A DNA stretch of 64,000 bases from positions 1,860,001-1,924,000 of the forward strand of contig NZ_CP044523.1 in NCBI RefSeq assembly GCF_008831545.1, given 5' to 3'. Position numbers and translations under genes: made by a program. Positions within the stretch are counted from its first letter, which is position 1. The number at the start of each line of letters is the position of its first letter. Below, piece by piece: positions 8,256-64,000 of this stretch. This DNA comes from Halorussus halophilus (GTDB lineage Archaea; Halobacteriota; Halobacteria; Halobacteriales; Haladaptataceae). The notes under the pieces were generated by a model. The model was not told the origin of the DNA and ran no database searches. It was given only the letters and a program-made list of their open reading frames with translations.

Positions 8256-9422
8256 TCACCGAACCATGGTACCAGATGACATGACTCGTGCCGTCGATTG
8301 CCACGCTGTCACGTCCTCCAGTGGGTTCGAATCTAACACCAAGAGGTCTGCTCTGTAGCCTTCAGACACTTTTCCGGAGTCGGAGAGTCCCAGCAAGTTG
8401 GCGGCGTTGACCGTCGCGGCCTCCAACGCGTGCCGTTCGGAGAGTCCGTACTCGACCAGTAGTTCCAGTTCTTCGGGACTGTCGCCGTGGAAGTTGAACG
8501 GCGTCCCGGCGTCGGTTCCCATGGCGATGGGGACGCCGGCGTCGAGCGCGTGGTCGAACGCGTCTTCGAACGCGTCGGACGCTTCCTCGGCTTTACGAAC
8601 TGCGTACTCTGGGATTCCTGCCGTTGTTCCGGCCTCCTCGATGCCGTGGAGGGCTTTGGCTGTCGGCACCCAGTACGTCCCTCGGTCGGCCATCAATTCG
8701 GCCGCCTCGCGGTCCATGAACGTCGCGTGTTCGACGCTGGAGACGCCCGCGCGGACGGCGTTCTTGATGCCCGCCGTGCCGTGGGCGTGGGCCGCGGTCG
8801 GAACACGCTTCGCGGCGGCCACTTCTATCAGCGCGGTCAACTCCGCTTCGTCGAGTTCGGGCGCGCCGACCATCGCGCCTTCCGTCAGGACACCCCCAGT
8901 CGCCATGCACTTGACCACGTCAGCGCCGCGCTTGAGTTGCTCTCGGGCTGCTTTCTTGACCTCCGGGACGCCGTCGGCCTCCCTGCCGAACCAGTGGCCG
9001 TGACCGCCGGTCATGATGACGTTCTGTCCGCACGCCAGCACTCGCGGGCCGTCGAGAACGCCTGCCTCGACCGCCTTGCGGGCGTCGAGTGCGAGCGAAC
9101 CGGGTGCGCCGAGGTCACGAACAGTCGTCACGCCTGCGTCGAGTGCGGCTTCGAGGTTCGCCGCGGCACGGTACGCCAGCGTCGCTTCGCTGTCGTCTTT
9201 TGTCGAACTCAGGTCGGCCCGCCCGTCTGCCATCAGGTGAACGTGTGCGTCTATCAGTCCGGGGACGACGTACTGTCCGTCTGCATCCACGACATCGGCC
9301 GACTCGGGAGCCGTCGAGTCACCGCGTGCGGTCACCTTGGTAACCATTCCATCTTCGACGACCACGTCGGCGGCCCGCGCACCATCTGCGTCTACGACCG
9401 TTCCACCACGGAGTACCAGCAT
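8256..9422 (-). CDS. Amidohydrolase family protein (imidazolonepropionase-like)
   Basis: 388-residue metal-dependent hydrolase. Metal and catalytic motifs run in the usual order: DAHVHL near residue 60, a Lys in VVKCMATGG, HAHG, SVEHATF and the Asp of MGTDAGTP. The N-terminal and C-terminal beta-sandwich pieces (LVLRGGTVVDADG and GYRADLLVLDSNP) are typical. Members hydrolyse cyclic amides, peptides or nucleobase-like rings; many 'imidazolonepropionase-like' members are Xaa-Pro or prolidase-type enzymes. Cytoplasmic. The ATG at 9422 was chosen over a longer frame because the extra N-terminus would overlap the divergent SDR and lacks family similarity. Confidence 0.87.
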   Translation of the reverse strand: MLVLRGGTVVDADGARAADVVVEDGMVTKVTARGDSTAPESADVVDADGQYVVPGLIDAHVHLMADGRADLSSTKDDSEATLAYRAAANLEAALDAGVTTVRDLGAPGSLALDARKAVEAGVLDGPRVLACGQNVIMTGGHGHWFGREADGVPEVKKAAREQLKRGADVVKCMATGGVLTEGAMVGAPELDEAELTALIEVAAAKRVPTAAHAHGTAGIKNAVRAGVSSVEHATFMDREAAELMADRGTYWVPTAKALHGIEEAGTTAGIPEYAVRKAEEASDAFEDAFDHALDAGVPIAMGTDAGTPFNFHGDSPEELELLVEYGLSERHALEAATVNAANLLGLSDSGKVSEGYRADLLVLDSNPLEDVTAWQSTARVMSSGTMVR

Positions 9423-9503
9423 CGTCCCCTCTATTCGCGCGCTGGCCCCTAAATTACTAGGTACCGGCGAAAGAGCCAACAGACCGGGTGCCGCACGATT
9501 GGT

Positions 9504-10262
9504 ATGGCAGACACATCTCTCGACCGCGAGGCACCACTCGACGGCAAGACCGCGCTCGTCACCGGCGCGAGTTCGGGAATCGGCGAGGCGACCGCGCACG
9601 CACTGGCCCGCGAAGGCGCGAGCGTGGCACTCGCCGCCCGCCGCGAGAAGGTGCTGGAAGACATCGGCGAGAAAATCGAGAGCGAACACGGCGCGGAGAC
9701 CCTCACCGTCCCGACGAACGTACGGGACGAAGGCAACGTCGAGGAGATGGTCGAGACGACAGTCGAGCAGTTCGGCCAACTCGACGTACTGGTCTGTAAC
9801 GCCGGACTCGCTCGCGGAGAGTCCGTAGAGAAACTGTCCACCGACGACTACGAGACGATGATGGAGACGAACGTCGATGGCGTCTTCTACGCGACGCGGG
9901 CGGCGTTACCGCATCTCCGAGAACAACGAGGCAACCTGATTTTCGTGGGAAGTTTCGCCGGACAGTACCCGCGGCCGTTCAACCCGGTGTACGCCGCGAG
10001 CAAGTGGTGGGTCCGAGGCTTCGCCCACAGCGTCGAAGGTAACGTCGGTTCGGATGGCGTCGCGGTCACCGTCGTCAACCCCACGGAGGTCCGCTCGGAG
10101 TTCGGCGACAGCTACGGCCAGTCGTTCGCCGAGCGGTTCGAAGAAGGCGAGGTGACCGAACCGGAGGAAGTCGCGGAGGCGATTCTCTTCGCCGCGAAAC
10201 AGGAGGGCTCGACGGTCAGCGAACTCGACATCTACCGGCGCGACAAGTTCAGTGGGTTCTAG
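9504..10262 (+). CDS. SDR family oxidoreductase
   Basis: 252-residue classical short-chain dehydrogenase. TGASSGIG near residue 20, CNAG in place of the usual NNAG, catalytic Ser in VGSFAG and YAASK. The basic AARR after beta-2 suggests NADPH (inference). The C-terminus ELDIYRRDKF is characteristic of the YdfG/'SDR family' group acting on hydroxy acids or ketones. It is divergent from the amidohydrolase and convergent with the FAD/Fe-S oxidoreductase, whose stop is 4 nt away, so no operon is implied. Confidence 0.9.
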   Translation: MADTSLDREAPLDGKTALVTGASSGIGEATAHALAREGASVALAARREKVLEDIGEKIESEHGAETLTVPTNVRDEGNVEEMVETTVEQFGQLDVLVCNAGLARGESVEKLSTDDYETMMETNVDGVFYATRAALPHLREQRGNLIFVGSFAGQYPRPFNPVYAASKWWVRGFAHSVEGNVGSDGVAVTVVNPTEVRSEFGDSYGQSFAERFEEGEVTEPEEVAEAILFAAKQEGSTVSELDIYRRDKFSGF

Positions 10263-10265
10263 GAT

Positions 10266-13200
10266 TCAATCGAGCGCCTGCGCCACTTTCTCGATTGGGT
10301 GCGGTGGTTCGTCCCCCATCTCCTTGCCCTCCCAATCGCCCAACTGAGTCCGACACGAGGCTCCCGGCGCGACGACGGTGTCGCTCTCGCTCTGTTCGAC
10401 TTGCTCGAACAGAATCTCACCGATTGCCTGACTCATCGAGTAGTGTTCGGCCTCGTAGCCGAAGCTTCCGGCCATTCCACAGCATCCCGAGTCGAGGTCG
10501 TCAACCTCGTAGCCCGCCGCTCGCAGGACGCTCGCGGCGTGGCCGTCCTTCTTCGTCGCCTTCTGGTGGCAGTGGCCGTGATAGGTCAGCGTTTCGGCGG
10601 GGGCGTCGAAGTCGAGGTCGAAGTCGAACGAGTCGAGGTACTCACAGACGCCGTAGGTGTTCGCGGCGACTCGTTCGACGGACTCGTCCGAGAGCAAGTC
10701 CAGATAGTCCGACTGTAGCATCACTGCGTCGGATGGTTCGACTACCACTACGTCCCAGCCGTCCCTGACGCGGGGTGCGAGCGCAGCGACGTTCTGTTCA
10801 GCTTGCTCGCGGGACTTGTCGAGGAACCCCTTCGAGTGTGCCGGACGACCGCTCGCCGTCACGTCATCGGGAATTTCGACGCGGACGCCCGCGCCTTCGA
10901 GGACACTCACCGCGGCTTTGCCCGCGTCGGGATGGTTGTAGTTCGTGTAGGTGTCGGGGAACAGCAGGACCTTCCGAGTCGCGTCGTCGGTCCGAATCCG
11001 TGGCCCGCCACGATTCTCGAACCAGTCGGTGAGGCTCTCCCGGTGGAATTGAGGGAGACTCCGTTCGCTGGCGATGCCGACTGTCTCTTCGAGCAGTGCT
11101 CTTGCGCCCGGCATCTTGCTGGCCAGATTCGAGAGCGGAGCCAATTTACTCCCCAACTCCGAGAGGCGGTCGATGTTGGCGAAGATGCGTTCCCGTAGTT
11201 CCACGCCGTGGCGCTCGTGGTACTCGTGTTCGACTTCGGCTTTGAGTTTCGCCATATCGACCTCGCTCGGACAGTCGCGGGCACAGCCCTTACAGCCGAT
11301 ACAGAGGTCCATCACCTCGGCCATGAACTCCACGTCGAACTGCTCGTCTTCAGGCAAGTCACCACTCATCGCCTGTCGGAGCATGTTCGCGCGCCCTCGC
11401 GTCGCGGTGACCTCCTCGTCCGCCGCGCGGTAGGTCGGACACATTACGCCACCGGTCGTCTCTTGGCCGCCGCGACAGCCACCACAGCCGTGACAGAGTT
11501 CGACCATCCCCTGAAAGCCGTTCTCGTTGTCCCAGTTCAACTCGGGCGCGAAGCCCGCGCTGAACTCGTAATCGGGGTCGAACCGCAGGTTCTCGGTCAT
11601 GTCCACGTCACCGCAAACTTGGCCGGGATTCAGCAACCAGTTGGGGTCGAACGCCGATTTGAGGTCCCGAAACACGCCCCAGACGTGGTCGCCGTACAGC
11701 TTGTGGTTCCACTGCGTTCGGGCCCGGCCGTCGCCGTGTTCGCCAGAGACGGAGCCGTCGTACTCGACCACGAGGTCCGTCGCGGCGTCGGCGATGGCTT
11801 CCATCTGGTTGACTCCGGCCGGACTCTTCGTGTTCACGAGCGGCCGGATGTGCAGACACCCCGGCCCGGCGTGGGCGTAGAAACTGGCGAAGGTGTCGTT
11901 GTCCTCCAAGACCTGCTGGAAGTCCGCAACGTATTCCGGGAGGTTCTCCGGCGGCACCGCGGCGTCTTCGATGAACGAGATGTGTTTGGCGTCGGAAGTC
12001 CGCGAGAGCAGAATCGGCAGTCCGGACTTCCGGAGCTTCCAGAATCGCGCGCGTTCGGCTTCGTCGTGAGCTTCGAGGAAGCCGAAGGCGTTCGCGTCCT
12101 CGCTCTGGCCTCTGTCTTTCCTCAGTTCCTCGACCTTCTCCTTGCCGTCCGCGTCGTCCTCGGCGTAGAACTCCACGAGCAGGACCGAGTTCGTCCCCTC
12201 GGGGAGCATCTCGACCACGTCGCGAAACTCCTCTGTCTCGCGCGCGAGGTCGATGAGCACGTCGTCCAGCACCTCGACGGCGGAGGGGTCGTGGTCCACA
12301 ATCGGAGCCACGTCCGCCATCGCGGTGAGCAGGTCGTCGTACGCCAGCAACGCCATCGACTTCGTTTCAGGCACTGGTTCGAGACCGACTTTCGCCTCCG
12401 TGACGATTGCCAGCGTGCCCTCACTTCCGGCGAGCAAGCGCGCGAGGTTTACGGTGCCCGATTCTGAGTTCGACTCTTCGACGAGTCTATCCAGATTGTA
12501 CCCCGAGACGTTGCGCTTCAAATCGGGGTACGCCTCCTCGATGGCTTCGCTCTCTTCGTCCACGACGCGCGCAACTTCGGCGTAGATTCGCGCCTCGATG
12601 TCGCCTTCGGGGTCGCCCTCCGCACGGAGTTCGGCTAGCGTCACCTCGCCGAAGGTCGTCACGGTCCCGTCTGCGAGGACGACTTCACATTCCTCGATGT
12701 AAGCGTCGGTCTTGCCGTACTTCAGCGAGTGCGAGCCAGTCGAGTTGTTGCCGATGGCTCCGCCGAGCGCCGACTTATCGCCCCACGCGGGGTCCGGCGC
12801 GAACTTGAGGTCGTGTGGCGCGAGTTCCTGATTCAGTTCCCCCAGTATCGCGCCGGGTTGCGCGCGAGCGGTCTGTTTCTCCGGGTCCACGTCCAGCACG
12901 GTCCCCATGTGCCGCGTGAAGTCCAGTACGACTGCTTCGTTGACGGACTGCCCGGCGAGGCTCGTTCCCCCTCCTCTCGGGAGGACCGGAACCTCTCGGT
13001 CGGCGCAGTACTCCATCACCGCCGCCACGTCCGCCGTCTTCGTCGGGAAGACGACGCCGATTGGCGTCACCTCGTACGCACTGGCATCCGTCGCGTAGAG
13101 TTGTCGAGAGTAGCTGTCGAATCGCACCTCGCCGTCCACAAGCGACTGGAGGTCCGCGACGAGTCCGGGGCGCTGTACGTCGGCCGACTGGTAGTCGTAG

Positions 13201-16060: not shown

Positions 16061-16858
16061 TTAGGTCAGGTCGAGCAACGCGTCGTAAGCCTCGGCGTAC
16101 GCCTCGTCCACTCGTTCTGGGGCTGTTCGTTCTTCGCCACCGAGTGCCGGAAGCGAGACGACCGCTTCGGGGTCGATGGGGTCTGTCACGTCGGAGACGT
16201 GCGCTTCGAGTCGGCCGTCGCGGGCGCTCCCGGAGGCGACGCTCCGCGCTCGCAAAAACCGGTCACCGCGATAGGCGGTCATCCGACCGGGTTCCACGAC
16301 TGCGACGGCGTCGAACTCCACGTCGCTGGTAGGAACCGCGATGTCGCCGTAAGACTCGACGACCGCACGCTTCGTCTCTCGAATCTGTTCGGCCAGTCGC
16401 TCGAACGCCGGGAGGTGACGGCTTCGAGTCACGGCGTCTAACTCGTCTACGGTCGTGACGCGGTCGGCGTCGGCGAGCGAGAGGTTCGCCCGCGCAGACT
16501 CGGGCACGTCGGCGTTGGCGTTCACGACGAACGAGTCGCCGACGCGGTCGCAGACGAACTCGCGGCGAGCCGTCCCGACGAGTCCGGTGTCGGGACCTGG
16601 TGAGGGTCGCCAGAGTCGATGGACGGGGTTGAGCGATTCCGGTTTCCAATCGCCGCGACTCGCGGCCGCGAGTCGCTTGGCGTCCTTACCGTAGAGTCGG
16701 CCTGCCTCGACCGCGCGGCGGTAGTCGTCGTGGTCGAACCAGTAGTCGTTGCCCGCACGCGGTTTGAACCCGACGCCGTCGATGCGGGCGAGCAGGCCGG
16801 TCGTGAACGTCGTCTTCCCGGCGTCTACTCGCGCACTGCCGACGACCAGTATCGTCAT
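16061..16858 (-). CDS. P-loop ATPase, dethiobiotin synthetase-like fold
   Basis: 265 residues. The N-terminus carries a Walker A-like loop GSARVDAGKTTF, resembling the deviant P-loops of DTBS/CobQ-type enzymes, and the rest is specific to haloarchaea. It overlaps the DUF5827 gene by 4 nt (ATGA), so the two are translated together. The ATG at 16858 was chosen because of that overlap and because the P-loop follows within about ten residues. Biochemical role unknown; a function with a small-molecule ligase or nucleotide-dependent regulator is possible. Confidence 0.8.
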   Translation of the reverse strand: MTILVVGSARVDAGKTTFTTGLLARIDGVGFKPRAGNDYWFDHDDYRRAVEAGRLYGKDAKRLAAASRGDWKPESLNPVHRLWRPSPGPDTGLVGTARREFVCDRVGDSFVVNANADVPESARANLSLADADRVTTVDELDAVTRSRHLPAFERLAEQIRETKRAVVESYGDIAVPTSDVEFDAVAVVEPGRMTAYRGDRFLRARSVASGSARDGRLEAHVSDVTDPIDPEAVVSLPALGGEERTAPERVDEAYAEAYDALLDLT

Positions 16859-51726: not shown

Positions 51727-52200
51727 GGTGGCCGACTGGTCGCCGGAGAGCGGCGTCGTACTCCGAGCGGTGGGCGTCCGTTCACCGATTCCGACGCGTC
51801 TGCCCTCCGTCAGACAAATGATTGATTTCGGAGAGACTGAAAGATAAACACACTACTGGTTGTAAATTTCTCGTTCGGGCGTGGTCTATCATCAACGTAG
51901 TTATGAGAAATGAGTCAACTTCACAGAACTTTTTGACTGAGACGAAAAGCAGGTACGGTGTCTCAGTCGGCTACTTTCGGGAGATGGGCCGCTCCCATCG
52001 AATCTATTTCTAGTTTGATACTAAAATAGAAAAGTTGGATAATTACCAGAATTTCGCTTAACCTTCTATAGTATCTTGATATTTTATAATCTATCCACGA
52101 GTAATTTAGAGTGAACGCTTGGTCCGGACGACGCGCTCGTGTGGTGCGCGGATGACCTCCTGGCCCGAACAGCGTGACGCTTCTCGTTGTCCAACCTACT
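51727..52200. other. AT-rich intergenic region
   Basis: About 470 bases of markedly lower GC without a credible gene; the 63-codon frame at 51822-52013 has no acidic bias and is not counted. It holds GATGGG (51983-51988) with CCCATC (51994-51999), a 6-bp dyad, and a long AT stretch (52010-52110) with several TATA-like words. Possibly a regulatory or formerly mobile segment. Confidence 0.5.
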
Positions 52201-52764
52201 ATGAAAGGGGAATATGCATTCTGTCCGAAAAGTGGTGCACGGCTCTCCGAGGAAATACACTACGACGAGTTCGGAAGGGGGTCGCGAACGCCGGTGAGAG
52301 ACGCCCATACGGGCGGCACGAAACCGGAAGGAGAACTGACGAACGGGTCGCTTCGGTCGTCACGCGTCGCCTTGTTCAACCACTTCCGTCGGTGTCACGA
52401 ACAACACGCCGATTCGTCGTGCAAGATGTACTCCCAGACTGCGCTCGCGTTCACTCGCCTGAAGCGGGCGGCGCGAGGCCGTCAGTCGTGGGACATGTAC
52501 GTCTGGTTCGCGCTCGGCCAACGACTCTATGACCTCGGGTACGAGGTGCAGTGGATGAACAGTCACGTCGAACCGCGGTGTCCCGACTGTGCGGGGCGAC
52601 TCAAGTACGACGCAACGGTCGAGCAGCAACTCAGAGCCCGGTGTGGGACCGACTGCACGGGTAACGACGGTGACAAACTCGAAGAGATACGGGAGACGGT
52701 CGCAGACCTCTACGTCCGCGCGTTCGAGGACGCGACCAGACCCGACGAGTTCGCGTTGCTGTAG
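52201..52764 (+). CDS. Haloarchaeal hypothetical protein with zinc ribbon
   Basis: 187 residues from ATG at 52201 (52174 is a longer choice). Only the second half looks typically haloarchaeal: DMYVWFALGQRLYDLGYEVQW, then a zinc ribbon PRCPDCAGRLKYD with ARCGTDCTG, and an acidic tail (EIRETVADLYVRAFEDAT). The first 70 residues are less acidic and may be non-coding or a different start may be used. Function unknown; the ribbon suggests nucleic-acid or protein binding. Confidence 0.55.
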   Translation: MKGEYAFCPKSGARLSEEIHYDEFGRGSRTPVRDAHTGGTKPEGELTNGSLRSSRVALFNHFRRCHEQHADSSCKMYSQTALAFTRLKRAARGRQSWDMYVWFALGQRLYDLGYEVQWMNSHVEPRCPDCAGRLKYDATVEQQLRARCGTDCTGNDGDKLEEIRETVADLYVRAFEDATRPDEFALL

Positions 52765-52829: not shown

Positions 52830-53873
52830 ATGCGGCTAGTGGAGATCATGGTGCAGACCGAACCTGCACAGGAGCGGATTCTGTCCTTGCTCGACGACGA
52901 GCAACTCGATTACACCGTGACAGATTCGGCGGACAAGGCTGGCTCTTCGGCCATCGTCACGCTGCCGCTCCCGACTCACACCGTCGAAACCGTCCAATCG
53001 CAACTGGACGAACTCGACGTGAACCACGACGCGTACACCGTCGTCGTCAACACCGAAGCCGTGGTCTCAGACGAGTCCGTGGACTCGTGGCCAGAAAACG
53101 ACGAAGAGACGATTACCCGGCGGCGTATCGCACGCGACGAACTCCACTCGAAAGCGGCGAACTTGCTCCCCGAACGGGTGACCTACCTGCTGATGACCGC
53201 GCTGAGTGCAGTGGTCGCCACTGCTGGCGTCTTGCTGGGGTCGATGCCGGTGATGGTCGGGTCGATGGTCATCGCCCCGTTGCTTGGCCCGTCGATGGCG
53301 ACCAGCGCGGCGACGGTCATCTCCGACAACGAACTGTTCGTTCGGAGCGCGAAGTATCAGGCGCTCGGAAGCGTTGTCGGACTCGTCAGTGCGTTGGGCT
53401 TCGCGCTCCTCGCGAAGACGATAGCCGTCCCGTCCGCCGAGATGGACCTCCAGACCAGTCTCCAACTGAGCCATCACACGTCGCCGACGTTCCTGCTCGT
53501 GTCCGTCGCACTCTGTGCGGGCATCGCAGGAGCGATTAGCCTCTCGACCAGCGGGATGACCTCGCTCGTCGGCGTGATGATAGCCGCGGCGGTCATGCCA
53601 CCTATCGGCGTCGTCGGCGTCGGCATCGCGTGGTTTCGCCCGACGGTCGTCCTCGGCTCTGGGGCGGTGGTTCTGGTGAACATGTTCTCCATCAACCTCG
53701 CGGCCATCGTCGGCCTGTGGTACTTCGGCTACCATCCCGAAGACTGGACGACCTTACGGGAGACGCGGAGTCGCATCCTCAAACGAATCCTCGTCCTCGC
53801 TGCACTCGTCGGCGCGTTGGCGCTGTTCCTCTCGAACGTAGAACACAGTCTGCCGGTGCTTCATCTCCCATGA
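52830..53873 (+). CDS. DUF389/TIGR00341 membrane protein
   Basis: 347 residues; ATG at 52830 preferred since the family begins MRLVEIMV, while ATG at 52815 adds five residues. Soluble N-terminal part (about 1-105), then six or so helices with VAPLLGPSMATSAATV- and MTSLVGVMIAAAVMPPIGVVG-like segments of the DUF389 repeat. Function uncertain, transporter-like. Overlaps the next gene by 4 nt (ATGA), starting a long chain of co-oriented membrane genes. Confidence 0.85.
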   Translation: MRLVEIMVQTEPAQERILSLLDDEQLDYTVTDSADKAGSSAIVTLPLPTHTVETVQSQLDELDVNHDAYTVVVNTEAVVSDESVDSWPENDEETITRRRIARDELHSKAANLLPERVTYLLMTALSAVVATAGVLLGSMPVMVGSMVIAPLLGPSMATSAATVISDNELFVRSAKYQALGSVVGLVSALGFALLAKTIAVPSAEMDLQTSLQLSHHTSPTFLLVSVALCAGIAGAISLSTSGMTSLVGVMIAAAVMPPIGVVGVGIAWFRPTVVLGSGAVVLVNMFSINLAAIVGLWYFGYHPEDWTTLRETRSRILKRILVLAALVGALALFLSNVEHSLPVLHLP

Positions 53874-55024
53874 CCACGGAACGCTCAGACACGACCGACG
53901 CTGACGGTATCGGCTCCGAAACAGATTCGGGCGACGCACGAACCGAGTCGTTCGTCCGAGTCCTGGTGTACGCGCTGGGCGTCCTCGCGAAGTTCGTCTC
54001 GCTCGTTGCGTCCATCGCGGCGGTCACGATACGACTCGTCCTCGCAGTCGTCACGAACGACGACAACCAGCGGCGCGCGCGCCGTTGGTTCCTCCTCGAA
54101 GGCAACCGCTGGATAATCATCGGTGCGCTCGTCGTGCTGATATTCGTCGGCTCGGTGACGCTCGGCTTGAGCAACGTCATCGGTGTCCGCGAGAGCAGTT
54201 TCGTGACGACGATGTTCTCGACCATCATCGCGGGCCTGTTCTCGTTCGTCCCGCTGGTCATCGCAGTGAACCAGTTGACGATTTCGCGGCTGTTCGGCAC
54301 GCCCGACAGACTTCGCCAACGAATCGACGGCGTCGAGGAGTTCCGCCGCAGCGTAGAGTCGCTCGCGACCGACACCGTCGTCAGTCCGACCGACCCCGCG
54401 GCGTTCCTCGCCATCGTCGCCGAGACGATGCGCGACCGGGCCGAGAAGTTGGACGAGACCAGCGACGTCGCCGACGAGGAAGTTCGCGCGGAACTGACGC
54501 AACTGGTCGAGGCAGTCACCGAGCAGAGCGAACAGATAGAAGCCGTGGTCGTTGGCGACCCCGAGTTGTTCGTCGCCCTACTCCCGACGATAGACGACGA
54601 CTACTCGGGACAAGCGACTCGCATTCGAAGACTCCTCACTGTCTACGGCGACGACCTCTCCGTCGAGTCCATCGAGTTGCTCGAAGAAATGCGGGAGACG
54701 TACCTCTCGGTGGACGTCGCGCGCCAGTACTTCAAGGTCATCTACCTCCAGCAGGAGTTGGCGACGCTCTCGCGCCTGCTGGCTTACAGCGGGACGACCG
54801 CGTTCCTGACCTCGACGCTGGTCATCATGATTTACGCGAGCGGCTACCCGCCAGCGGTCAGCGAGTTCGTGTTGCTGGTACTCGTGGCGCTCTCGCTGGG
54901 CGTCGCGTTCGCGCCACTCGCCATCCTCTTTGCGTTCGTCATCCGCATCGCAACCGTCGTCAAGCGAACGTCCGCGCCCGGCGCGTTCACGCCGAAGGGC
55001 GAGCGCCCTGCGCACGCGAGGTGA
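53870..55024 (+). CDS. Haloarchaeal membrane protein of unknown function
   Basis: 384 residues. About five membrane helices: 25-50, 72-95, 108-130 at the N-terminal side and two near 300-350; between them a soluble acidic helix-rich region (about 150-290, LSVESIELLEEMRETYLSVDVARQYF). The C-terminus ends basic (KRTSAPGAFTPKGERPAHAR). No family recognised. Coupled to DUF389 upstream by a 4-nt overlap and to the lipoprotein gene 3 nt downstream. Confidence 0.75.
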   Translation: MTTERSDTTDADGIGSETDSGDARTESFVRVLVYALGVLAKFVSLVASIAAVTIRLVLAVVTNDDNQRRARRWFLLEGNRWIIIGALVVLIFVGSVTLGLSNVIGVRESSFVTTMFSTIIAGLFSFVPLVIAVNQLTISRLFGTPDRLRQRIDGVEEFRRSVESLATDTVVSPTDPAAFLAIVAETMRDRAEKLDETSDVADEEVRAELTQLVEAVTEQSEQIEAVVVGDPELFVALLPTIDDDYSGQATRIRRLLTVYGDDLSVESIELLEEMRETYLSVDVARQYFKVIYLQQELATLSRLLAYSGTTAFLTSTLVIMIYASGYPPAVSEFVLLVLVALSLGVAFAPLAILFAFVIRIATVVKRTSAPGAFTPKGERPAHAR

Positions 55025-55027
55025 CCC

Positions 55028-56059
55028 ATGACGAACGACGACCACTCCCGAACCACCCGTCGCAGGTTCCTCGAACTCGGTGCAGGAGCCGCGAACGTCG
55101 CACTCGCGGGCTGTTTCGGCGGCGATGAATCGTCGCCGCCGACCGGCGAGACCACCAACCTCCCGAACCTCGACGAGGACGACGACCGCTGGCACGTCGC
55201 CGATTCGCCGACCCAGATGACGCTCTACGACGCGGTGCGGACCCGTGCCGGACCCTACGCGGTCGGCGAGGGCGGCCGCGTCCTCGGGCGACTCGACGGC
55301 GAGTGGCAGGTCGAACTGGAGAGTGGCCCCCGGGGCGAACACAACGGACTCCACGGCGCGGACGCCACCGCGAACGGTCGCCACCTCTGGTTCTGCGGTG
55401 ACAGCGGCGTCGTCGGGCGGTACGCGGTGGGCGACGGCGAACTGACGGACTTCTCGGCTCCGAAAGGTAAGACTTCGACGTGGGAGGACCTCGCCGTCGC
55501 CGGTCTCGCCGGACAGGAGTGGCTCTACCTCGTGAACGGCTCCGGCGAACTCCTGCGTGGCAAACACGACGGCGACGACGTGACGTGGGAGTCGGTCGTC
55601 AAACCGGGGTCGGGGTCGAGCGCGGCCGCAGTGGCCTTCGTCAATCGCGGCACGGGCTACGTCTGTGACACCTCAGGTAACGTCTTCCAGACCATCGACG
55701 CTGGCAGCGAGTGGCGACGCATCGGCATCGACCACGCAGGCGCGAACTTCCACGACGTGGCCGCCCAAGGCGCAGACGACGTGTCGGTCGCGGCCGATTC
55801 CGGCGGGATGTTCCAGTACAACGGCTTCACGTGGACGCGGCTCTCGGCGGGCGAGAACGCGATTCGTACCGTCGAGCGCAACAAGCACATCGGACTGGCC
55901 GCCGACTCGACAGGCGTCGTCTACGAACTCTCTCGCGGTGGCTGGCAGGCCGTCGGCGTCGGCGACGGTAACGGACTCCACGGGGTCGTTCTCGGGACCA
56001 CCGACGTGCCGGACGTGGCCGTCGGCGCGAGTGGGACGATTCTCGAACATCCACGATGA
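55028..56059 (+). CDS. Tat lipoprotein with Ycf48/BNR-like beta-propeller
   Basis: 343 residues. Tat signal TTRRRFLELG and lipobox LAGC (Cys about 29), then repeated blades of 40-45 residues (GYVCDTSGNVFQTIDAGSEW, DVSVAADSGGMFQYNGFTWTRL, HIGLAADSTGVVYELSRGGW). These resemble Ycf48/photosystem-assembly and WD/BNR propellers. Exposed on the cell surface, probably for protein-protein contacts. Co-transcribed with the two upstream membrane genes, so it may be their outside partner (inference). Confidence 0.82.
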   Translation: MTNDDHSRTTRRRFLELGAGAANVALAGCFGGDESSPPTGETTNLPNLDEDDDRWHVADSPTQMTLYDAVRTRAGPYAVGEGGRVLGRLDGEWQVELESGPRGEHNGLHGADATANGRHLWFCGDSGVVGRYAVGDGELTDFSAPKGKTSTWEDLAVAGLAGQEWLYLVNGSGELLRGKHDGDDVTWESVVKPGSGSSAAAVAFVNRGTGYVCDTSGNVFQTIDAGSEWRRIGIDHAGANFHDVAAQGADDVSVAADSGGMFQYNGFTWTRLSAGENAIRTVERNKHIGLAADSTGVVYELSRGGWQAVGVGDGNGLHGVVLGTTDVPDVAVGASGTILEHPR

Positions 56060-56290: not shown

Positions 56291-57772
56291 ATGATAGGAA
56301 CACTATTCGACGGTCTCGGTCTCGCGGCCGAGATGGCGTGGGAGACGTGGTGGGCGCTCGTCCTCGGGTTTACCATCACGGGCGCGGTCGAACAGTTCGT
56401 CAGCGACGAGCAGATGACGAGCTATCTCGGCGACGACGGCTGGCGAGAGGTCGGTCTCGGGACGCTGTTCGGGGCGGTCTCCTCCAGTTGTTCGTTCTCG
56501 GCCGTCGCCACCGCGAAAGCACTGTTCAAGAAAGGAGCCTCGGGCGTCGCCGCGCTCGCGGCGTTCATGTTCGCCGCGACGGACCTCGTGGCCGAACTCG
56601 GACTCGTGATGTGGATTCTGCTCGGGTGGGAGTTCGTCCTCGCGGACTTCGTTGGGGGCGTCGTCGCCGTCGTCGTCATGGCGTACGTCTACCGCGAGTA
56701 CGTGCCCGACGAGTGGTTCGAGACCGCCCGCGAACACGCGCTCGCGCTCGACGAAGTGACCTGCCCGGCCTGCGAGATGGCGGCCGACCCCGAGGACGAG
56801 GAGACCGTCAAGAGCGAAGTCGGCGGCACCACCGAGTACTTCTGCTGTGGCGGCTGTCTCCGGGCGTATCGGAATCGAACAGACACCGACGCGGACGACG
56901 CCGAAGCGTCGTCCGTGAGCGCGAACGGCGACTGGGCAGACGACCTCACGTCGCTCTCCGGATGGAAGAAAGCCGCGACCAACAGCGTCCGCGAGTGGGA
57001 CATGCTCTGGGACGACATCGCCATCGGCTTCCTGCTCGCCGGTCTCATCGCCGCGTTCGTCCCGCGAGCGTGGTGGACCTCGCTGTTCGGCTTCGGCGCG
57101 CAGGGCAGCCTGACGTGGGTCTTCGCCGGCGCGATTTTGGGGGTCGTCGTGGGTGTCGTCACGTTCATCTGCTCGGTCGGTAACGTCCCGTTCGCGCTCG
57201 TGCTGTGGACGAACGGGATTCCCTTCGGCGCGGTGTTGTCGTTCATCTACGCCGACCTCATCATCCCGCCAATCGTGAACGCCTACCGGCGCTACTACGG
57301 CAAGCGAATGGCCGCGGTCATCTTCGCCGTGACGGCGTTCGGCGCTGTCGTCGCTGGTGTGTTCGTCCACTTCGCGTTCGACCTGACTGGATTGATTCCC
57401 GCCCAAGGCACTACAGGCGGCACCGCGCCACACGGCTACACGCTCGTCCTCAACCTGCTGTTCACGCCGATTTTCCTCGCGCAAGTCGTCGCGACCTACG
57501 GCCACGAGGATCTCGGCGAGTGGCTGGTCGCCTTGCCGGGCGTCGTCGGCCCGTATCTCTACGGACTGGAGAAGGCGTCTGGTCACCTCGCTACAGCAGG
57601 CCGCGCGCTCACTCACGGCGCGAAAGAACTCGGGGAGGCCCTGTGGCGAGCAAGCCAACTCACCGCGAAACTGCTCCGTGCGCTCGCCAGAGCCGTGAGC
57701 GCAATCGGTGCGGCAGTCGCGACGGCCGTGGTACAACTGCTCGAAGCCTACCGGGATTTCCGCGACGCATGA
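56291..57772 (+). CDS. UPF0718/ArsP-type permease with embedded YHS-like metal domain
   Basis: 493 residues. Two sets of four to five helices. First half has the family segment SSSCSFSAVATAKALFKKGAS; second half repeats it as FICSVGNVPFALVLWTNGIPFGAVLSF. Between the halves, on the cytoplasmic side (about 155-200), lies a YHS/TRASH-like block: CPACEM, a spacer, then YFCCGGCLRAY. Known relatives (ArsP) export organoarsenicals; others are of unknown metal or organic substrate. Extra Cys-rich domain suggests metal sensing or delivery. The C-terminal tail (about 440-493) is helical and amphipathic. ATG at 56291 chosen; overlaps the next start by 4 nt. Confidence 0.85.
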   Translation: MIGTLFDGLGLAAEMAWETWWALVLGFTITGAVEQFVSDEQMTSYLGDDGWREVGLGTLFGAVSSSCSFSAVATAKALFKKGASGVAALAAFMFAATDLVAELGLVMWILLGWEFVLADFVGGVVAVVVMAYVYREYVPDEWFETAREHALALDEVTCPACEMAADPEDEETVKSEVGGTTEYFCCGGCLRAYRNRTDTDADDAEASSVSANGDWADDLTSLSGWKKAATNSVREWDMLWDDIAIGFLLAGLIAAFVPRAWWTSLFGFGAQGSLTWVFAGAILGVVVGVVTFICSVGNVPFALVLWTNGIPFGAVLSFIYADLIIPPIVNAYRRYYGKRMAAVIFAVTAFGAVVAGVFVHFAFDLTGLIPAQGTTGGTAPHGYTLVLNLLFTPIFLAQVVATYGHEDLGEWLVALPGVVGPYLYGLEKASGHLATAGRALTHGAKELGEALWRASQLTAKLLRALARAVSAIGAAVATAVVQLLEAYRDFRDA

Positions 57773-59022
57773 GCCTCGAAGAGTCTCGCGGCCTCGTTGG
57801 CTTTCGAGACGTGCTGGAACGCGAACCCGGGTTGTTCACGCTCGCAGTCCTCACGCTCGGCGTCAACCTCTCCGTCGGCGTCCTCGCGCGCTACGTCCCG
57901 GCGTATCTCCGGGCGTTCGGTGTCGGACCGATTCTCGTCGGCGTCGTCTGGAGCGGTTGGTTGCTCGCGCGGGCCGCACTCCCGTACGTCGGCCACGAGG
58001 CGCTCGCCGACCTACACCCGCGCGCCCTGCTCGCTGGCTTCGGCACGCTGGCGATGCTCGGCCTGTTCGTCTGGCTCGCGGCCCCGCACGCCGAGTCGTT
58101 CGATCCGTGGCTCTGGGTTCTCGCGGGCGGGGTCGTCTTGGAGACGTGGCGCTCGCACGGCCCCGGCGTCACCTTCACCGTCGAAGGTCGGAACCTCTCG
58201 ACCGACCGTTTCGCTCGGAGCCTTGCGACGACACGGACGTTCCGCCGCGTCGGCGTTCTGTTAGGCCTCAGTCTGCTCGTCGTGCTGTTCGCCATGGTGG
58301 GCGAGTTCAGGCCGGGGTTCCAACTCGTCGTCGCAGTCGTCGCATGCGTCGGCGCGGCCGCCACGGTCGGACGCATCGTTCTCGGCGAGACGGACCTCGA
58401 AGTGCCCCTCCGGTCGCCGCCGAGTAGCGAGCGAGTTCGCTCGGACTTGACGGAGTTGGCGACACAACGTCGGTCGCTGTTGCTCGGCGATACGCTGTTC
58501 CGGTTCGCACGCGGCATGTTCTACCCGTTCCTGATTCTCGTCGTCGCAGACAGAGCAGTGCCGGCACAGGTCGCAGGCTTCTCGCTGTCGCCGATCGCCA
58601 TCTTCACCGTCGCACTCGTCGCCGAGACGCTACTCGCGCTCGTCGCCTCGATGCCCGCGACTAGACTCGCAGACGAACTCGGCTCCCTGCCGGTCGCAAT
58701 CGGTGGGGTACTCGTCGTCGCGTTCGTCCCGCTGGGTCTGGCCAGTGTGCCGCCGACTCTCCTCGGTATCTCGGTACTGTTCGCGTGTTTCGGTCTCGGC
58801 GTGGCGACTCGCCCGGTTCGTCGTTCGCTGGTCGCTCGCGCGACCCGCGAAGTCGGTAGAGACGCGGCGGAGTTGTACCGCCTCGTTCGCCGCCTGCTCG
58901 TCGTGCCGAGCGCCATCGTCGGCGGACTGCTGTACGCGAACTCGCCGACGATGGCGCTCGGGCTGGCGACGTCGGTTGCACTGCTCGGTTGCTGGGAACT
59001 CCTGCGGCATTCGACCCAATGA
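57769..59022 (+). CDS. MFS transporter
   Basis: 417 residues, about 12 helices. Starts within a 4-nt ATGA overlap after the permease and ends in a 4-nt overlap with the oxidase gene. LGVNLSVGVLARYVPAYLRAFGVGPILVGVVWSGWLLARA shows the helix 1-2 pattern; GRNLSTDRFARSLATTRTFRRVGVL follows. Not a typical sugar-phosphate type; the substrate is unknown. Cotranslation with permease and oxidase suggests a common function around metals or cofactors (inference). Confidence 0.82.
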   Translation: MSLEESRGLVGFRDVLEREPGLFTLAVLTLGVNLSVGVLARYVPAYLRAFGVGPILVGVVWSGWLLARAALPYVGHEALADLHPRALLAGFGTLAMLGLFVWLAAPHAESFDPWLWVLAGGVVLETWRSHGPGVTFTVEGRNLSTDRFARSLATTRTFRRVGVLLGLSLLVVLFAMVGEFRPGFQLVVAVVACVGAAATVGRIVLGETDLEVPLRSPPSSERVRSDLTELATQRRSLLLGDTLFRFARGMFYPFLILVVADRAVPAQVAGFSLSPIAIFTVALVAETLLALVASMPATRLADELGSLPVAIGGVLVVAFVPLGLASVPPTLLGISVLFACFGLGVATRPVRRSLVARATREVGRDAAELYRLVRRLLVVPSAIVGGLLYANSPTMALGLATSVALLGCWELLRHSTQ

Positions 59023-60560
59023 CTCACGCGCACAAACCTGCCGGACCCACGCGGTGGCTCACGACGCTCGACCACCGCGACATCGGCCTGCTGTACGTCG
59101 CTTTCGGCCTTCTCGCGGGGTTCCTCGGCGGGTTCGACGCGCTGATGCTCAGGACCGACCTGCTCACGTCGCACGCCGACTTCTGGGGCCAGCGCACCTA
59201 CGACGCGCTCTTTACGACCCACGGACTCACCATGCTGTTCCTGTTCGCGGGGCCGGTCATCTTCGGCGTGGGTAACTACGTCGTCCCCCTGCTTGTCGGG
59301 GCGGACGACATGGCGTTTCCGCGCGTGAACGCCGTCGCCTTCTGGATGCTCCCACCCGCCGCGATGCTCCTCCGCGCGGGCATCGTGACGGACGTTCTCG
59401 GCTTCGAGTCGATTCGGCCGCCCGCAGTCGGGTGGACGCTGTACACCCCGATGACCGCCGAGATGCCGAACCCGGAAGTCGATTTGCTGTTGCTCGGCCT
59501 GCACCTTTCAGGGGTCAGCACCATCATGAGCGGAATCAACTTCGTCGTGACCATCGTCGAAGAACGCGACGACGAACGAGTCCCGTGGGCGGACCTCGAC
59601 ATCTTCTCGTGGACGATGCTGACCACGGGCGGACTGGTCGTCTTCGCGTTCCCGATGCTCGGCAGTGCCCTGCTCATGCTGCTGCTCGACCGAAACGTCG
59701 GCACGACGTTCTTCACGGTCGAAGGCGGCGGACCACTGCTCTGGCAACACCTGTTCTGGTTCTTCGGACACCCCGAGGTGTACATCCTCGTCCTACCGCC
59801 GATGGGGCTGGTGAGCCTGATTCTGCCGCGATTTTCGGGCCGGAAACTGTTCGGCAAGACCGCCGTGGTCTACTCGACGCTCGGCATCGGCGTCCTCGCG
59901 TTCGGTGTCTGGGCACACCACATGTTCGTTGCGGGTCTCGACCCCAGAATTCAGGCGAGTTTCATGGCCGTGACGCTCGCCATCGCGGTGCCGAGCGCCG
60001 TCAAGACGTTTAACTGGATTGCGACGATGTGGAACGGCAGAGTGCGACTCACCGCGCCGATGCTGTTCTGCGTGGGAGCCATCGCAAACTTTGTCGTCGG
60101 TGGCGTCACGGGCGTCTTTCTGGCGGCGATTCCCGTCGATGTACTGCTCCACGACACCTACTACGTGGTCGGACACTTCCACTTCATGCTCGTCGGCATG
60201 AGCGTCTACGGCCTGTTCGCGGGCGTCTACTACTGGTTCCCGCTGGTGACCGGCCGGATGTACGACGAGGGACTCGCGAAGTTGCACTTCTGGCTGACGC
60301 AAGTTGGCCTGCTGGTCGCCTTTTTCGTCATGCTGTTGCTCGGGATGGACGGTCTTCCACGGAGAATGGCGACGTATCCCTCACAGTTCGTGCCGCTCCA
60401 GCAGGTGGCGACGATTGGTGCGTACCTCATCGGACTCGCGCAGGTCTTCTGGGTCGGCAACGTCGTCTGGGGCCTGCTCGTCGGTCCCGAAGCAGCGACG
60501 GACCCGTGGGAGTTGGAGCGCGACGGACTGCTCACGACCGAATGGGAGGAAGAACGATGA
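59019..60560 (+). CDS. A-type heme-copper oxidase subunit I, stand-alone
   Basis: 513 residues. All catalytic residues seen: low-spin heme His68 (TTHGLT) and His388, high-spin heme His386 (GHFHF), copper B ligands His251, His300 and His301, and Tyr255 in HPEVY for the His-Tyr crosslink. Glu253 of that motif and Lys329 (VPSAVKTFNW) fit D- and K-type proton channels of class A1. About twelve helices. Subunit II (copper A) and III are not in this stretch. It overlaps the MFS gene upstream by 4 nt and a 21-codon ORF downstream by 4 nt. The electron donor is unknown. Confidence 0.92.
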   Translation: MTHAHKPAGPTRWLTTLDHRDIGLLYVAFGLLAGFLGGFDALMLRTDLLTSHADFWGQRTYDALFTTHGLTMLFLFAGPVIFGVGNYVVPLLVGADDMAFPRVNAVAFWMLPPAAMLLRAGIVTDVLGFESIRPPAVGWTLYTPMTAEMPNPEVDLLLLGLHLSGVSTIMSGINFVVTIVEERDDERVPWADLDIFSWTMLTTGGLVVFAFPMLGSALLMLLLDRNVGTTFFTVEGGGPLLWQHLFWFFGHPEVYILVLPPMGLVSLILPRFSGRKLFGKTAVVYSTLGIGVLAFGVWAHHMFVAGLDPRIQASFMAVTLAIAVPSAVKTFNWIATMWNGRVRLTAPMLFCVGAIANFVVGGVTGVFLAAIPVDVLLHDTYYVVGHFHFMLVGMSVYGLFAGVYYWFPLVTGRMYDEGLAKLHFWLTQVGLLVAFFVMLLLGMDGLPRRMATYPSQFVPLQQVATIGAYLIGLAQVFWVGNVVWGLLVGPEAATDPWELERDGLLTTEWEEER

Positions 60561-60622
60561 TTCGTCGTCTACAAACCGGGATTCCACCGCCACCAGGACC
60601 TCCCGGCCCCTCGACCCGCTGA
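60557..60622 (+). CDS. Tiny proline-rich ORF, 21 residues, coupled to oxidase
   Basis: ATG at 60557 overlaps the oxidase stop by 4 nt (ATGA), and TGA closes at 60622. It encodes MIRRLQTGIPPPPGPPGPSTR: basic start and proline-rich end, without a membrane helix. Tiny oxidase-associated subunits exist in archaeal oxidases, but those are membrane proteins. It could also be a translational coupling device or chance. Coding status uncertain. Confidence 0.4.
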   Translation: MIRRLQTGIPPPPGPPGPSTR

Positions 60623-60659: not shown

Positions 60660-61070
60660 ATGCCATTTCCCGCAGAGTCGATACCAGACGGTGCCCTGTT
60701 CGCGCCACACCACTTCCTGTACGGGCTGTATCTGGTCCTGTTCAGATGCGCCCGGAAGTGGGACAATTACCCCAGGACGGAACCGCTCGTGGTCGCCGGA
60801 AGCGCCCTGTTCGCCCTGTTCGGTTGGGCGCACCTCTGGCGGTACTACCCAGTGGCGGGGGCGACAGTGTGCGTCGTCGGCACGCTCGGCACAGTCGTCG
60901 GCGGACTCGTCACGACCAAATACGGCCGCCGCTGGCAGTTGTTCGTCGTCTGGAGCGCGCTCGTCGCGCTGGACGACGCGATTTCCCACGCCTTCGGCGT
61001 CTGGACGCCGCTCGACTGGCTCTGGAACTTCGCGTGGCGACTCGGCGACAGTGCGGCACTGCTCGCCTGA
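60660..61070 (+). CDS. Small membrane protein of oxidase operon
   Basis: 136 residues, four membrane helices (about 12-30, 45-62, 70-90, 95-130). FAPHHFLYGLYLVLFRCARKW and WGAHLWRYYP-like GWAHLWRYYP are characteristic; the ending DDAISHAFGVWTPLDWLWNF contains His and Asp that could bind metal. I cannot name the family. It lies 99 nt after the oxidase stop on the same strand and is likely co-transcribed. Could be an assembly or quinol-side subunit. Confidence 0.7.
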   Translation: MPFPAESIPDGALFAPHHFLYGLYLVLFRCARKWDNYPRTEPLVVAGSALFALFGWAHLWRYYPVAGATVCVVGTLGTVVGGLVTTKYGRRWQLFVVWSALVALDDAISHAFGVWTPLDWLWNFAWRLGDSAALLA

Positions 61071-61169: not shown

Positions 61170-61649
61170 ATGACTGTGTACGAGACCACTATCCCCGGTG
61201 TCGGACGGAAGTACGAACTCGAAATCAGCGGCGACGAGCGACTCGCCGTCGTCGTCCACAACGACAGCAGACGCGACGTGTATCGGCGCTCGAAGCGCGG
61301 AGAAAACGAGAAGCTGTTCGGTCTCTCTGGCGCGGAAGCGCGCCGACTCGGGTCGATTCTGGAGGGCGCGTACTTCCAGCCAGTCGAACTCGACGCGCTG
61401 GACGTGCCGCTCGGCGACGCCATCATCGAGTGGTACGAACTGCCCGAAGACGCCACTCTCGTCGGCTCGTCGCTCGCCGAAGCAGACGTGTGGGGCGAGA
61501 CCGGCGCGACCGTCATCGCGGTTCAGCGCGGGTCGGAGACGCATCCGAGTCCGAACCCGGAGTTCGACCTGCGCGCTGGCGACGTGCTAGTCGCGGTCGG
61601 CTCTCGGGAAGAACAAGCGGCGCTGAGCGAACTCGTCCGGGGCGAGTAG
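61170..61649 (+). CDS. TrkA-C domain regulatory subunit of a cation/proton antiporter (KhtT-like)
   Basis: 159 residues. N-terminal part (about 1-75) of KhtT type (YETTIPGVGRKYELEISGDERL), C-terminal RCK_C/TrkA-C domain (about 75-159, FDLRAGDVLVAVGSREEQ). Binds nucleotides or ions and gates the antiporter encoded one base downstream. ATG at 61170 chosen since the KhtT start MTVYETTIPG is conserved. Same orientation and 1-nt gap with the antiporter show an operon. Confidence 0.88.
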   Translation: MTVYETTIPGVGRKYELEISGDERLAVVVHNDSRRDVYRRSKRGENEKLFGLSGAEARRLGSILEGAYFQPVELDALDVPLGDAIIEWYELPEDATLVGSSLAEADVWGETGATVIAVQRGSETHPSPNPEFDLRAGDVLVAVGSREEQAALSELVRGE

Positions 61650-61650
61650 C

Positions 61651-62901
61651 GTGTCACTTCCAATCAGCGTCGTCCTCGGCGTCGTGTTGTTCGCGCTGGC
61701 ACTGGCGGGCGCGCTCGCCGACAAACTCGGCCAGCCGGTTATCCCCGCGTACATCCTCGCCGGAATCGTCCTCGGGCCGAGCGCGCCGTCGCTCGTTCCC
61801 GGCGTCGTCGTGACGAGCGAGGGATTCGTCCACGCGTTCGCGGAACTGGGACTCGTCGCACTACTCTTCTTCCTCGGGGTCCACGTCGAACTCGACCGAT
61901 TGCTATCGAACTACCGACTCATCCTCGTGAACGGCCTGCTCGACTTCGTCGTCAACGTGGCTGTCGGCGTCGGCATCGGTCTGCTATTTGGCTTCGGTCT
62001 CGTCGAGACGCTGTTCGTCGCGGGGATGGTGTACATCTCCTCCAGCGCAATCGTCGGCAAGACACTGGTCGAGCGCGGGTGGGTCCTCGAAGCCGAGAGC
62101 GAGGCCATCTTCGGGACGCTCATCTTCGAAGACCTGGTCATCGCGCTCTACATCGCAGTCCTCTCGACGGTCGTCGTCCACGACGGCTCCGTGGTCGGCG
62201 CGCTCGCCTCTGTGTCGAAAGGTATCGCGTTCCTCGCCGTCGTCGCGCTCGTCGGTTGGTACGGTTCGAGCTACGTCGAGCGACTGCTCGACACCGCGGA
62301 CGACGAGCAGTTCCTCCTGCGCGTCCTCGCCGTCGCCACGCTCGTCGCCAGTGCCGCGACGTTCGTCGGCGTCAGCGTCGGCGTGACTGCCTTCTTCGTC
62401 GGCGCGACAGTCGGCCGTACCGACCTCGTCGAGCGCGTCGAGAAGCGACTGGACCCCGTTCGCGACCTCTTCGCCGCGGTGTTCTTCTTCTCCATCGGGT
62501 TGACGACGGAACTCTCCGCAGTGTTCGACGTGGCTGGACTGCTCGCGGTCGCAGTCGTCGCAACGACCGCCAGCAAGCTACTCAGCGGGACGCTCGGTGG
62601 CCACCTCTACGGACTCGACGCCCGCGGGTCGTTGCGGGTGGGCGTCGGCATGGTCGCGCGCGGCGAGTTCTCGCTGGTGCTGGCCGCGCTCGCTCGAACC
62701 GCCGGAACCGGGCGACTCGGCCGCATCGTTCCGGAGTTCGGCGTCGGCTACGTCCTCGTGATGAGCGTCTTCGGTACGCTGTTGCTCCGCCACGAAGGCC
62801 GACTCGCGGCCCTCAGCGGGGTCGCAGAACGGGGCACTGGTGTGGGCACGTTGACACGAGGCGAGCAATCGACCCGAACGCCGGAACCTAAACGACAGTG
62901 A
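61651..62901 (+). CDS. Cation/proton antiporter (KefB/KhtU, CPA2 family)
   Basis: 416 residues, GTG start 1 nt after the regulator stop. About 12-13 helices; GQPVIPAYILAGIVLGPSAPSLVP and ALLFFLGVHVELDRLL are family starts, VYISSSAIVGKTLVERGW the ion-binding region, VARGEFSLVLAALA the conserved late helix. No C-terminal RCK domain, consistent with the separate regulator. In KhtTU the role is K+/H+ exchange; ion specificity here is inferred. Basic short C-terminal tail. Confidence 0.9.
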   Translation: MSLPISVVLGVVLFALALAGALADKLGQPVIPAYILAGIVLGPSAPSLVPGVVVTSEGFVHAFAELGLVALLFFLGVHVELDRLLSNYRLILVNGLLDFVVNVAVGVGIGLLFGFGLVETLFVAGMVYISSSAIVGKTLVERGWVLEAESEAIFGTLIFEDLVIALYIAVLSTVVVHDGSVVGALASVSKGIAFLAVVALVGWYGSSYVERLLDTADDEQFLLRVLAVATLVASAATFVGVSVGVTAFFVGATVGRTDLVERVEKRLDPVRDLFAAVFFFSIGLTTELSAVFDVAGLLAVAVVATTASKLLSGTLGGHLYGLDARGSLRVGVGMVARGEFSLVLAALARTAGTGRLGRIVPEFGVGYVLVMSVFGTLLLRHEGRLAALSGVAERGTGVGTLTRGEQSTRTPEPKRQ

Positions 62902-62997: not shown

Positions 62998-63396
62998 GTG
63001 AAAGAACAGTCACGGTTGAACGAATCGTCACTAGTGAACGAAGCATCGGTACTGAGTGAACGTCCCATGACAGCAACTGAATCCACCGACGTAGACTCCG
63101 AGCAGTGCATCGACCCCGAGACCGACCACAGGCCAGACGAGTCGGTCGAGGGAACCGAGAGCGACACCCAATCGACCCGAGTCAGGTTCTGGCTGACCAA
63201 CGACCTGCTGGCGTTCGCGATGAACGTCTCGCTGGCCATCGTCGTCGTCGCTGGCGGCGCAGGATTCCTCGACCTCGCGGCAGTTCCACTGGAGATGCGG
63301 TTGACCTACCTCACCATCGCGGGAGGGTCGGCCGTCTGGACGTTCGGACAACCGGCGTTCGAGACGTGGCGAGAGAACGGGCGCGGCGGTGCCTGA
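62998..63396 (+). CDS. Small membrane protein, two helices
   Basis: 132 residues from GTG at 62998; ATG at 63067 gives 109. N-terminal 60 residues acidic and disordered, then TM helices at about 68-90 and 97-115. A TATA-like AATTTTAGG at 62951-62959 would start transcription near 62980, permitting the GTG start. No family recognised. Its stop overlaps an upstream GTG of the PadR frame. Confidence 0.6.
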   Translation: MKEQSRLNESSLVNEASVLSERPMTATESTDVDSEQCIDPETDHRPDESVEGTESDTQSTRVRFWLTNDLLAFAMNVSLAIVVVAGGAGFLDLAAVPLEMRLTYLTIAGGSAVWTFGQPAFETWRENGRGGA

Positions 63397-63490
63397 CCGC
63401 AGGTTCCGACCGCCACGCCCGGTAGACAGGCCGGAAGTCGGGTTCGACCCCCGCGCGTGGTCTCGGCGGCAGACGCCGCCGGTGTTTGAG

Positions 63491-63859
63491 ATGGGTGTGA
63501 GAGAACAACCAATCGACGGCGCGGAATCGACTACTGAACAGCCAGCCTCGGCGCGCCCGCTTACAGAAATGACCGGGTTTCAGCGGAATCTGCTGCTCGC
63601 CATCGCGTCGCTCGAAGGCACGAACCCGAACGGCGTCGAGGTCAAGCGAACGTTGGAGCAACACTACGACGAAGAACTCAACGAAGGGCGACTCTACCAG
63701 AATCTCCGAGAGCTGCTGGCGAGTGGTGACGTCGAAAAGCTCCCGCTCGACGGGCGGACGAACGCGTACTATCTGACCGACAAAGGCCGCGAGCGACTGC
63801 TCGCACACAGACAGTGGGCCGACGACTGCTTGACCGAAGAGACGAGCGCAGACGAGTAA
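63491..63859 (+). CDS. PadR-family transcriptional regulator
   Basis: 122 residues from ATG at 63491 (GTG at 63389 would add 34 residues that look non-conserved). Core wHTH from about 27: TGFQRNLLLAIASLEGTNPNG, YDEELNEGRLYQNLRELLASGDVEK, NAYYLTDKGRERLLAH. Haloarchaeal PadR proteins bind as dimers and control small sets of genes. Neighbouring membrane proteins may be its targets (inference). Confidence 0.82.
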   Translation: MGVREQPIDGAESTTEQPASARPLTEMTGFQRNLLLAIASLEGTNPNGVEVKRTLEQHYDEELNEGRLYQNLRELLASGDVEKLPLDGRTNAYYLTDKGRERLLAHRQWADDCLTEETSADE

Positions 63860-63882: not shown

Positions 63883-64000
63883 ATGGTACTCAAAGACATT
63901 TTTTCGACGATAGATCGGATGACAGACGGAAAACCCGACGACTCACAGACAGCCGGGGACAGTGCGACAGACGACGCCGAACCGACGAGCGACCCCGAAG
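63883..64000 (+). CDS. Start of an unidentified protein, cut by window end
   Basis: ATG at 63883, 39 codons visible: MVLKDIFSTIDRMTDGKPDD then a very acidic Ser/Thr/Asp-rich stretch, open to the window edge. Lies 23 nt after the PadR stop. Too short to identify; the acidic linker suggests a following folded or membrane domain. Confidence 0.55.
   Translation, partial: MVLKDIFSTIDRMTDGKPDDSQTAGDSATDDAEPTSDPE

Follow-up and report, generated by a model that had tools for sequence, protein, structure and literature searches.

The DNA analysed in this study (hereafter, the window) is a 64,000-nucleotide stretch of the Halorussus halophilus genome, in which an ArsP_1-family permease, a divergent MFS protein and CoxA, an A-type heme-copper oxidase subunit I, are encoded by three overlapping genes. 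A sequence-only reading of the window had set these genes apart as a linked group of three. The linkage is real, but the three genes are not a complete unit: they form the core of a much larger gene set, here called the island. DUF389, TMX and a Ycf48-like lipoprotein are encoded upstream of the permease; orf136, TrkA_C, antiporter, PadR and a second Ycf48-like gene follow CoxA. The features, in window coordinates, are as follows.

52174..52764, + strand: zinc-ribbon-like small protein (ZnF), C-terminal part kept in most islands; DUF3268 match not significant (E=0.089)
52830..53873, + strand: DUF389 membrane protein (Pfam DUF389 E=4e-31), placed by island synteny as an early conserved island gene
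53870..55024, + strand: TMX membrane protein, the island marker; no Pfam family above cut-off; overlaps DUF389 as ATGA
55028..56059, + strand: YCF48a, Ycf48-like beta-propeller by profile and fold match; N-terminus with RR and a lipobox-like motif
56291..57772, + strand: ArsP_1-family permease (Pfam ArsP_1 E=5e-69)
56762..56857, + strand: TRASH-like Cys-rich segment (CPAC...YFCCGGC), predicted metal-binding, in the central loop of the permease
57769..59022, + strand: divergent MFS protein (MFS_1 E=9e-7, below cut-off)
59019..60560, + strand: island CoxA, A-type heme-copper oxidase subunit I (COX1 E=5e-146; diagnostic residues; clade 99/96)
60557..60622, + strand: 21-codon ORF beginning at a third ATGA; lacking in relatives
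60660..61070, + strand: orf136, small membrane protein, in the window's family and a few others
61170..61649, + strand: TrkA_C domain protein (Pfam E=3e-15), in a subset of islands
61651..62901, + strand: Na+/H+ exchanger-family antiporter (Pfam E=1e-49), in a subset of islands
63389..63859, + strand: PadR-like regulator (Pfam PadR E=5e-9), in most islands
63919..64000, + strand: YCF48b, second Ycf48-like gene, start only; it runs past the window end (L085 1920-2966)

The ATGA joins were confirmed at 57769-57772 (permease/MFS) and 59019-59022 (MFS/CoxA), and all three frames are open. The idea that such coupling is uncommon did not hold: overlap alone is not rare, and further ATGA overlaps occur in the window at 16855/16858, 49078/49081 and 53870/53873, the last at the DUF389/TMX junction. 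The case must therefore rest on conservation. The 21-codon ORF was rejected as a conserved gene because it is missing from relatives, and it probably arose by chance.

The order DUF389-TMX-Ycf48-permease-MFS-CoxA-(s106)-PadR-Ycf48b, with small variations, was found in 46 distinct haloarchaeal loci; this number counts the distinct island CoxAs after a further search round, with profile searches over the fetched stretches. The recurrent gene s106 encodes a 106-aa membrane protein. In the same searches PpoB2, HMA and a glutamate-dehydrogenase-like gene were often added to the set, and the latter (Glu/Leu/Phe/Val dehydrogenase) is kept in many islands (e.g., L100 14398-15678). The TMX marker was detected in 38 of 394 genomes of the class (approximately 10%) and in 18 of 86 genera. 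Permease orthologs in five genomes of the window's family share 55-74% identity, each with the same neighbour set, and a scan of named genomes found the block in Haladaptatus, Natrinema, Haloterrigena, Natronoglomus, Halovivax, Natrialba, Halospeciosus and Halobaculum. Some genomes, H. halobius and Halobaculum among them, have a rearranged block in which several kilobases separate the permease from MFS-CoxA. Both four-base overlaps (permease/MFS and MFS/CoxA) recur in relatives, and the MFS-CoxA overlap is kept in many of them. In two annotated public records the island genes bear nothing but generic or hypothetical names, and no description of the island was found in literature searches, subscription papers being mostly outside their coverage. 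The TMX gene of a Natrinema zhouii plasmid (L289 5213-6688) is publicly annotated as cbb3-type cytochrome c oxidase subunit I; this name looks wrong, because no Pfam family matches a TMX relative and no His is conserved in the family consensus.

The permease passes the gathering score of ArsP_1 (233 vs 32.3 bits) and does not reach the cut-off of the SO_0444 Cu/Zn efflux equivalog NF033936 (80.1 vs 300 bits). The CPAC...YFCCGGC site noticed inside it is real and spans residues 158-189. Its description as a YHS-like domain stands only in part: the Cys domain itself is real, but the YHS fit is weak (E=0.035, 14.5 vs 30.3 bits), and TRASH fits better (E=0.0009, 19.7 vs 27 bits), below cut-off as well. 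The permease conserves Cys67, Cys294 and its Cys domain. In the structural model (pLDDT 75), Cys67 and Cys294 sit between half-helices, and the loop that connects the two halves carries the Cys domain; this predicted layout suggests a soft-metal site. Comparison of the model with the PDB gave no significant match, the best hits (E=0.02) being anion symporters and TRAP transporters. Permease relatives of approximately 400 aa were discarded as island markers because they also occur without the island.

Oxidase copper can depend on MFS proteins (PMC5829832, PMC10588857). The island MFS proteins are poorly conserved (28-55% identity), with an MFS_1 match in 7 of 12 members. Their identification as CcoA was rejected: no conserved MxxxM/HxxxM, and no conserved Met or His at all, was found across 28 aligned members. 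A contig scan with the MFS protein as query found nothing, the protein being too divergent. The best MFS matches of most genomes (30-40% identity) were also set aside, as they represent a general paralog and the true island neighbours are often weaker second matches. YCF48a matches Ycf48 (8am5) by PDB profile (E=2.7e-15), and the best fold match of its model (pLDDT 84) is Ycf48 with D1 peptide (5ojr); the Pfam PSII_BNR cut-off was not reached.

The window CoxA is catalytically complete, as had been proposed, with a full set of heme and CuB ligands and with D132, N139, E286 and K362. Residues are numbered as in Rhodobacter. The residue mapping was checked by alignment to the solved plant COX1 (7jro). 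The six His ligands, Tyr288 and the K-pathway Lys362 are present in 46 of 46 island CoxAs, the window's included. The D-pathway residues Asp132, Asn139 and Glu286 (A1 subtype), intact in the window CoxA, vary among the others: E286 is lost in 20 of the 46, N139 in 22, and 26 have another residue in place of D132 (Glu in 11). None of these losses occurs in a comparison set of 25 other CoxA paralogs. The residues lost in one island CoxA branch are normally needed for proton pumping. The E286 pattern on the CoxA tree requires at least three changes of state. This tree comprises 27 island CoxAs, the first to be collected, together with 25 non-island CoxAs from the same genomes or from relatives; the 27 lie on one side of a branch (99/96). 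The window CoxA does not reach the cut-off of the CtaD/CoxA equivalog TIGR02891 (619.3 vs 670.75 bits).

The window's genome carries five COX1-family genes. A second lone CoxA in it (L009 9117-10811, C2:204 kb), with no linked coxB, adjoins the island clade as sister. CoxAC-type paralogs (L004/L010, own genome C2:300 kb; L147, L148, L156 and L157) have Met at the Lys362 position and retain D132, N139 and E286; island CoxAs of the Natrialbaceae type show the opposite pattern.

Cox11, the CuB chaperone, was absent from 8 of 8 genomes tested, and Sco was absent from the window's genome. PpoB2, a copper chaperone according to Pfam, was present in every one of the 13 genomes that encode the long island permease vs 20 of 146 overall (P=6e-14, hypergeometric test on the 146-genome sample, which ignores relatedness). 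Island genes of relatives pass the gathering score of PF09948 (PpoB2) with 149.9 and 112.7 vs 28.7 bits. Within the fetched stretches PpoB2 lies near at least 32 of 46 islands, and up to 14 show none. It lies close to the block in each of the five family relatives, and the order in Haloprofundus salinisoli is DUF389-TMX-PpoB2-Ycf48-HMA-permease-MFS-CoxA, with the six genes from PpoB2 to CoxA in direct succession. The single PpoB2 of the window's genome is unlinked, approximately 1.27 Mb from the island (L206 ~9200-10500, C1:639 kb); its neighbour is an HMA gene, and a Ycf48-like gene lies approximately 7 kb off. In Marinomonas, a PpoB2 protein passes copper to a tyrosinase (PMC2855505).

The sequence-only reading had offered a metal (copper) supply chain dedicated to the oxidase as one explanation. 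This proposal now has strong comparative support, with linkage in approximately 45 relatives and PpoB2 travelling along. Of the two observations that were to speak against it, one is clearly not made in relatives, where oxidase and permease are linked; the other, an ordinary coxB elsewhere as the partner of the oxidase, is probably true. We consider the chances about even that the island serves specifically to load copper into, and to assemble, an alternative A-type CoxA. For the permease and the MFS protein, a copper role is inferred from their gene context.

Three other explanations were weighed. The missing subunit II had suggested direct feeding by quinol or a blue-copper protein; the explanation weighed here is a CoxA without a CuA subunit that takes electrons straight from quinol or halocyanin. 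In general, haloarchaeal oxidases are believed to receive electrons from halocyanin (PMC8305020). The island of the window indeed contains no coxB, and the two COX2 genes of the genome both lie outside the window. A search for the CuA motif over 1107 predicted genes of the island stretches, which recovered 17 of 17 control CoxB genes, found none outside L254, L256 and L277; a CoxB profile revealed no further coxB, leaving 43 of 46 islands without subunit II. The subunit II-facing Asp412 is Gly in 39 of 46 island CoxAs. However, the same change occurs in 9 of 25 other CoxAs, and the His411 position also differs in an actinobacterial CoxA with a solved structure; loss of Asp412/His411 was thus rejected as proof of a missing subunit II. 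L254, L256 and L277 each carry an orphan coxB with a full CuA motif directly behind the Ycf48a gene, all six genomes checked have 2-4 coxB genes elsewhere, and a cupredoxin-like motif was looked for in island genes and not found. These results weaken direct feeding by quinol or a blue-copper protein, which we regard as distinctly unlikely. We think instead that the CuA subunit II used by island CoxA is a shared one, encoded elsewhere in most genomes, given the three orphan coxB genes and the six genomes, in which COX1-family genes outnumber coxB.

It is somewhat more plausible, though still unlikely, that the island is a metal/redox stress-defence locus, in which a poorly coupled CoxA consumes oxygen or returns carriers to the oxidised state under stress, while the transporters rid the cell of toxic copper instead of supplying the oxidase. 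The D-pathway losses, confined to island CoxAs in our comparison, are consistent with poor coupling, the neighbours PadR, TrkA_C and antiporter are stress-like, and the permease family resembles Cu/Zn efflux proteins. Nevertheless, E286 is kept in the window CoxA and in 26 of 46, PpoB2 is known as a delivery chaperone and not as a resistance pump, and the recurrent island genes include no recognisable P-type copper ATPase. The least probable explanation is a loose operon of membrane proteins with no shared function, co-inherited as a mobile block, e.g., on plasmids. Some islands are plasmid-borne and gene composition differs between lineages, as this explanation would have it, but order and overlaps hold down to approximately 50% CoxA identity over several families, and PpoB2 still co-occurs in all 13 genomes, in some of which it is unlinked. 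The copper-loading reading has points against it as well: the poor conservation of the MFS protein and its lack of CcoA motifs, the unlinked PpoB2 of the window's genome, and PpoB2 without the island in seven sampled genomes. A role in copper handling is not apparent for DUF389, TrkA_C/antiporter or the glutamate-dehydrogenase-like gene, and other CoxAs of the same genomes mature without Cox11, so that a general route must exist.

Under the copper-loading reading, which we prefer, copper would enter via, or be held by, the MFS protein and be carried, where present, by the HMA-type chaperone. The permease with its Cys site would export it, and the membrane chaperone PpoB2 would take it over. 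Copper would then be inserted as CuB into apo-CoxA, kept ready by the Ycf48-like propellers, and mature CoxA would pair with a CuA subunit II encoded elsewhere in most genomes and within the island in three. The conserved synteny, the PpoB2 association, the intact active site, the single clade and the coxB occurrences are observations; we infer the identity of the metal, its direction, the order of hand-over and the sharing of the subunit. A joint reading of island and oxidase is tentative, and we give it a clearly less than even chance: the island as a whole may define an undescribed class of A-type oxidase that possesses its own copper-insertion pathway (ArsP-type permease, PpoB2 and Ycf48 propellers, no Cox11/Sco). 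With the same reserve, the enzyme of the Natrialbaceae-type branch may have abandoned the D-pathway and use only the K-pathway, as a non-pumping or differently pumping oxygen reductase. The island offers concrete candidate factors and a client for archaeal CuB insertion without Cox11 in cultivable genera, and natural A-type oxidases without Glu286 and Asn139 but with a complete active site, found in this same clade, allow the contribution of the D-pathway to be examined in enzymes as they occur in nature.

Among known systems, the CcoA-CcoI route of the Rhodobacter cbb3-type oxidase resembles the proposed module in that an MFS protein and a Cys-site membrane exporter are tied to the CuB of one oxidase type. 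The island differs in its A-type oxidase, in a putative exporter of the ArsP_1 permease family where the Rhodobacter route has a P-type ATPase, and in an MFS protein without CcoA motifs; PpoB2 and Ycf48-like proteins would replace the usual chaperones. The PpoB1/PpoB2 tyrosinase operon of Marinomonas mediterranea likewise encodes a PpoB2-family membrane protein with a copper oxidase, whereas the proposed client in the island is a heme-copper oxidase. The haloarchaeal CoxA/CoxB aa3 oxidases (CoxA1, CoxAC2; PMC8305020) belong to the same A-type subunit I family, and the window CoxA is 64-68% identical to its two closest paralogs in its own genome; the island CoxAs are nonetheless distinguished by a separate clade, the island context and the loss of D-pathway residues in one branch. 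The Ycf48 photosystem II assembly factor shares propeller sequence and fold with the island Ycf48-like protein, which sits instead in an archaeal oxidase island.
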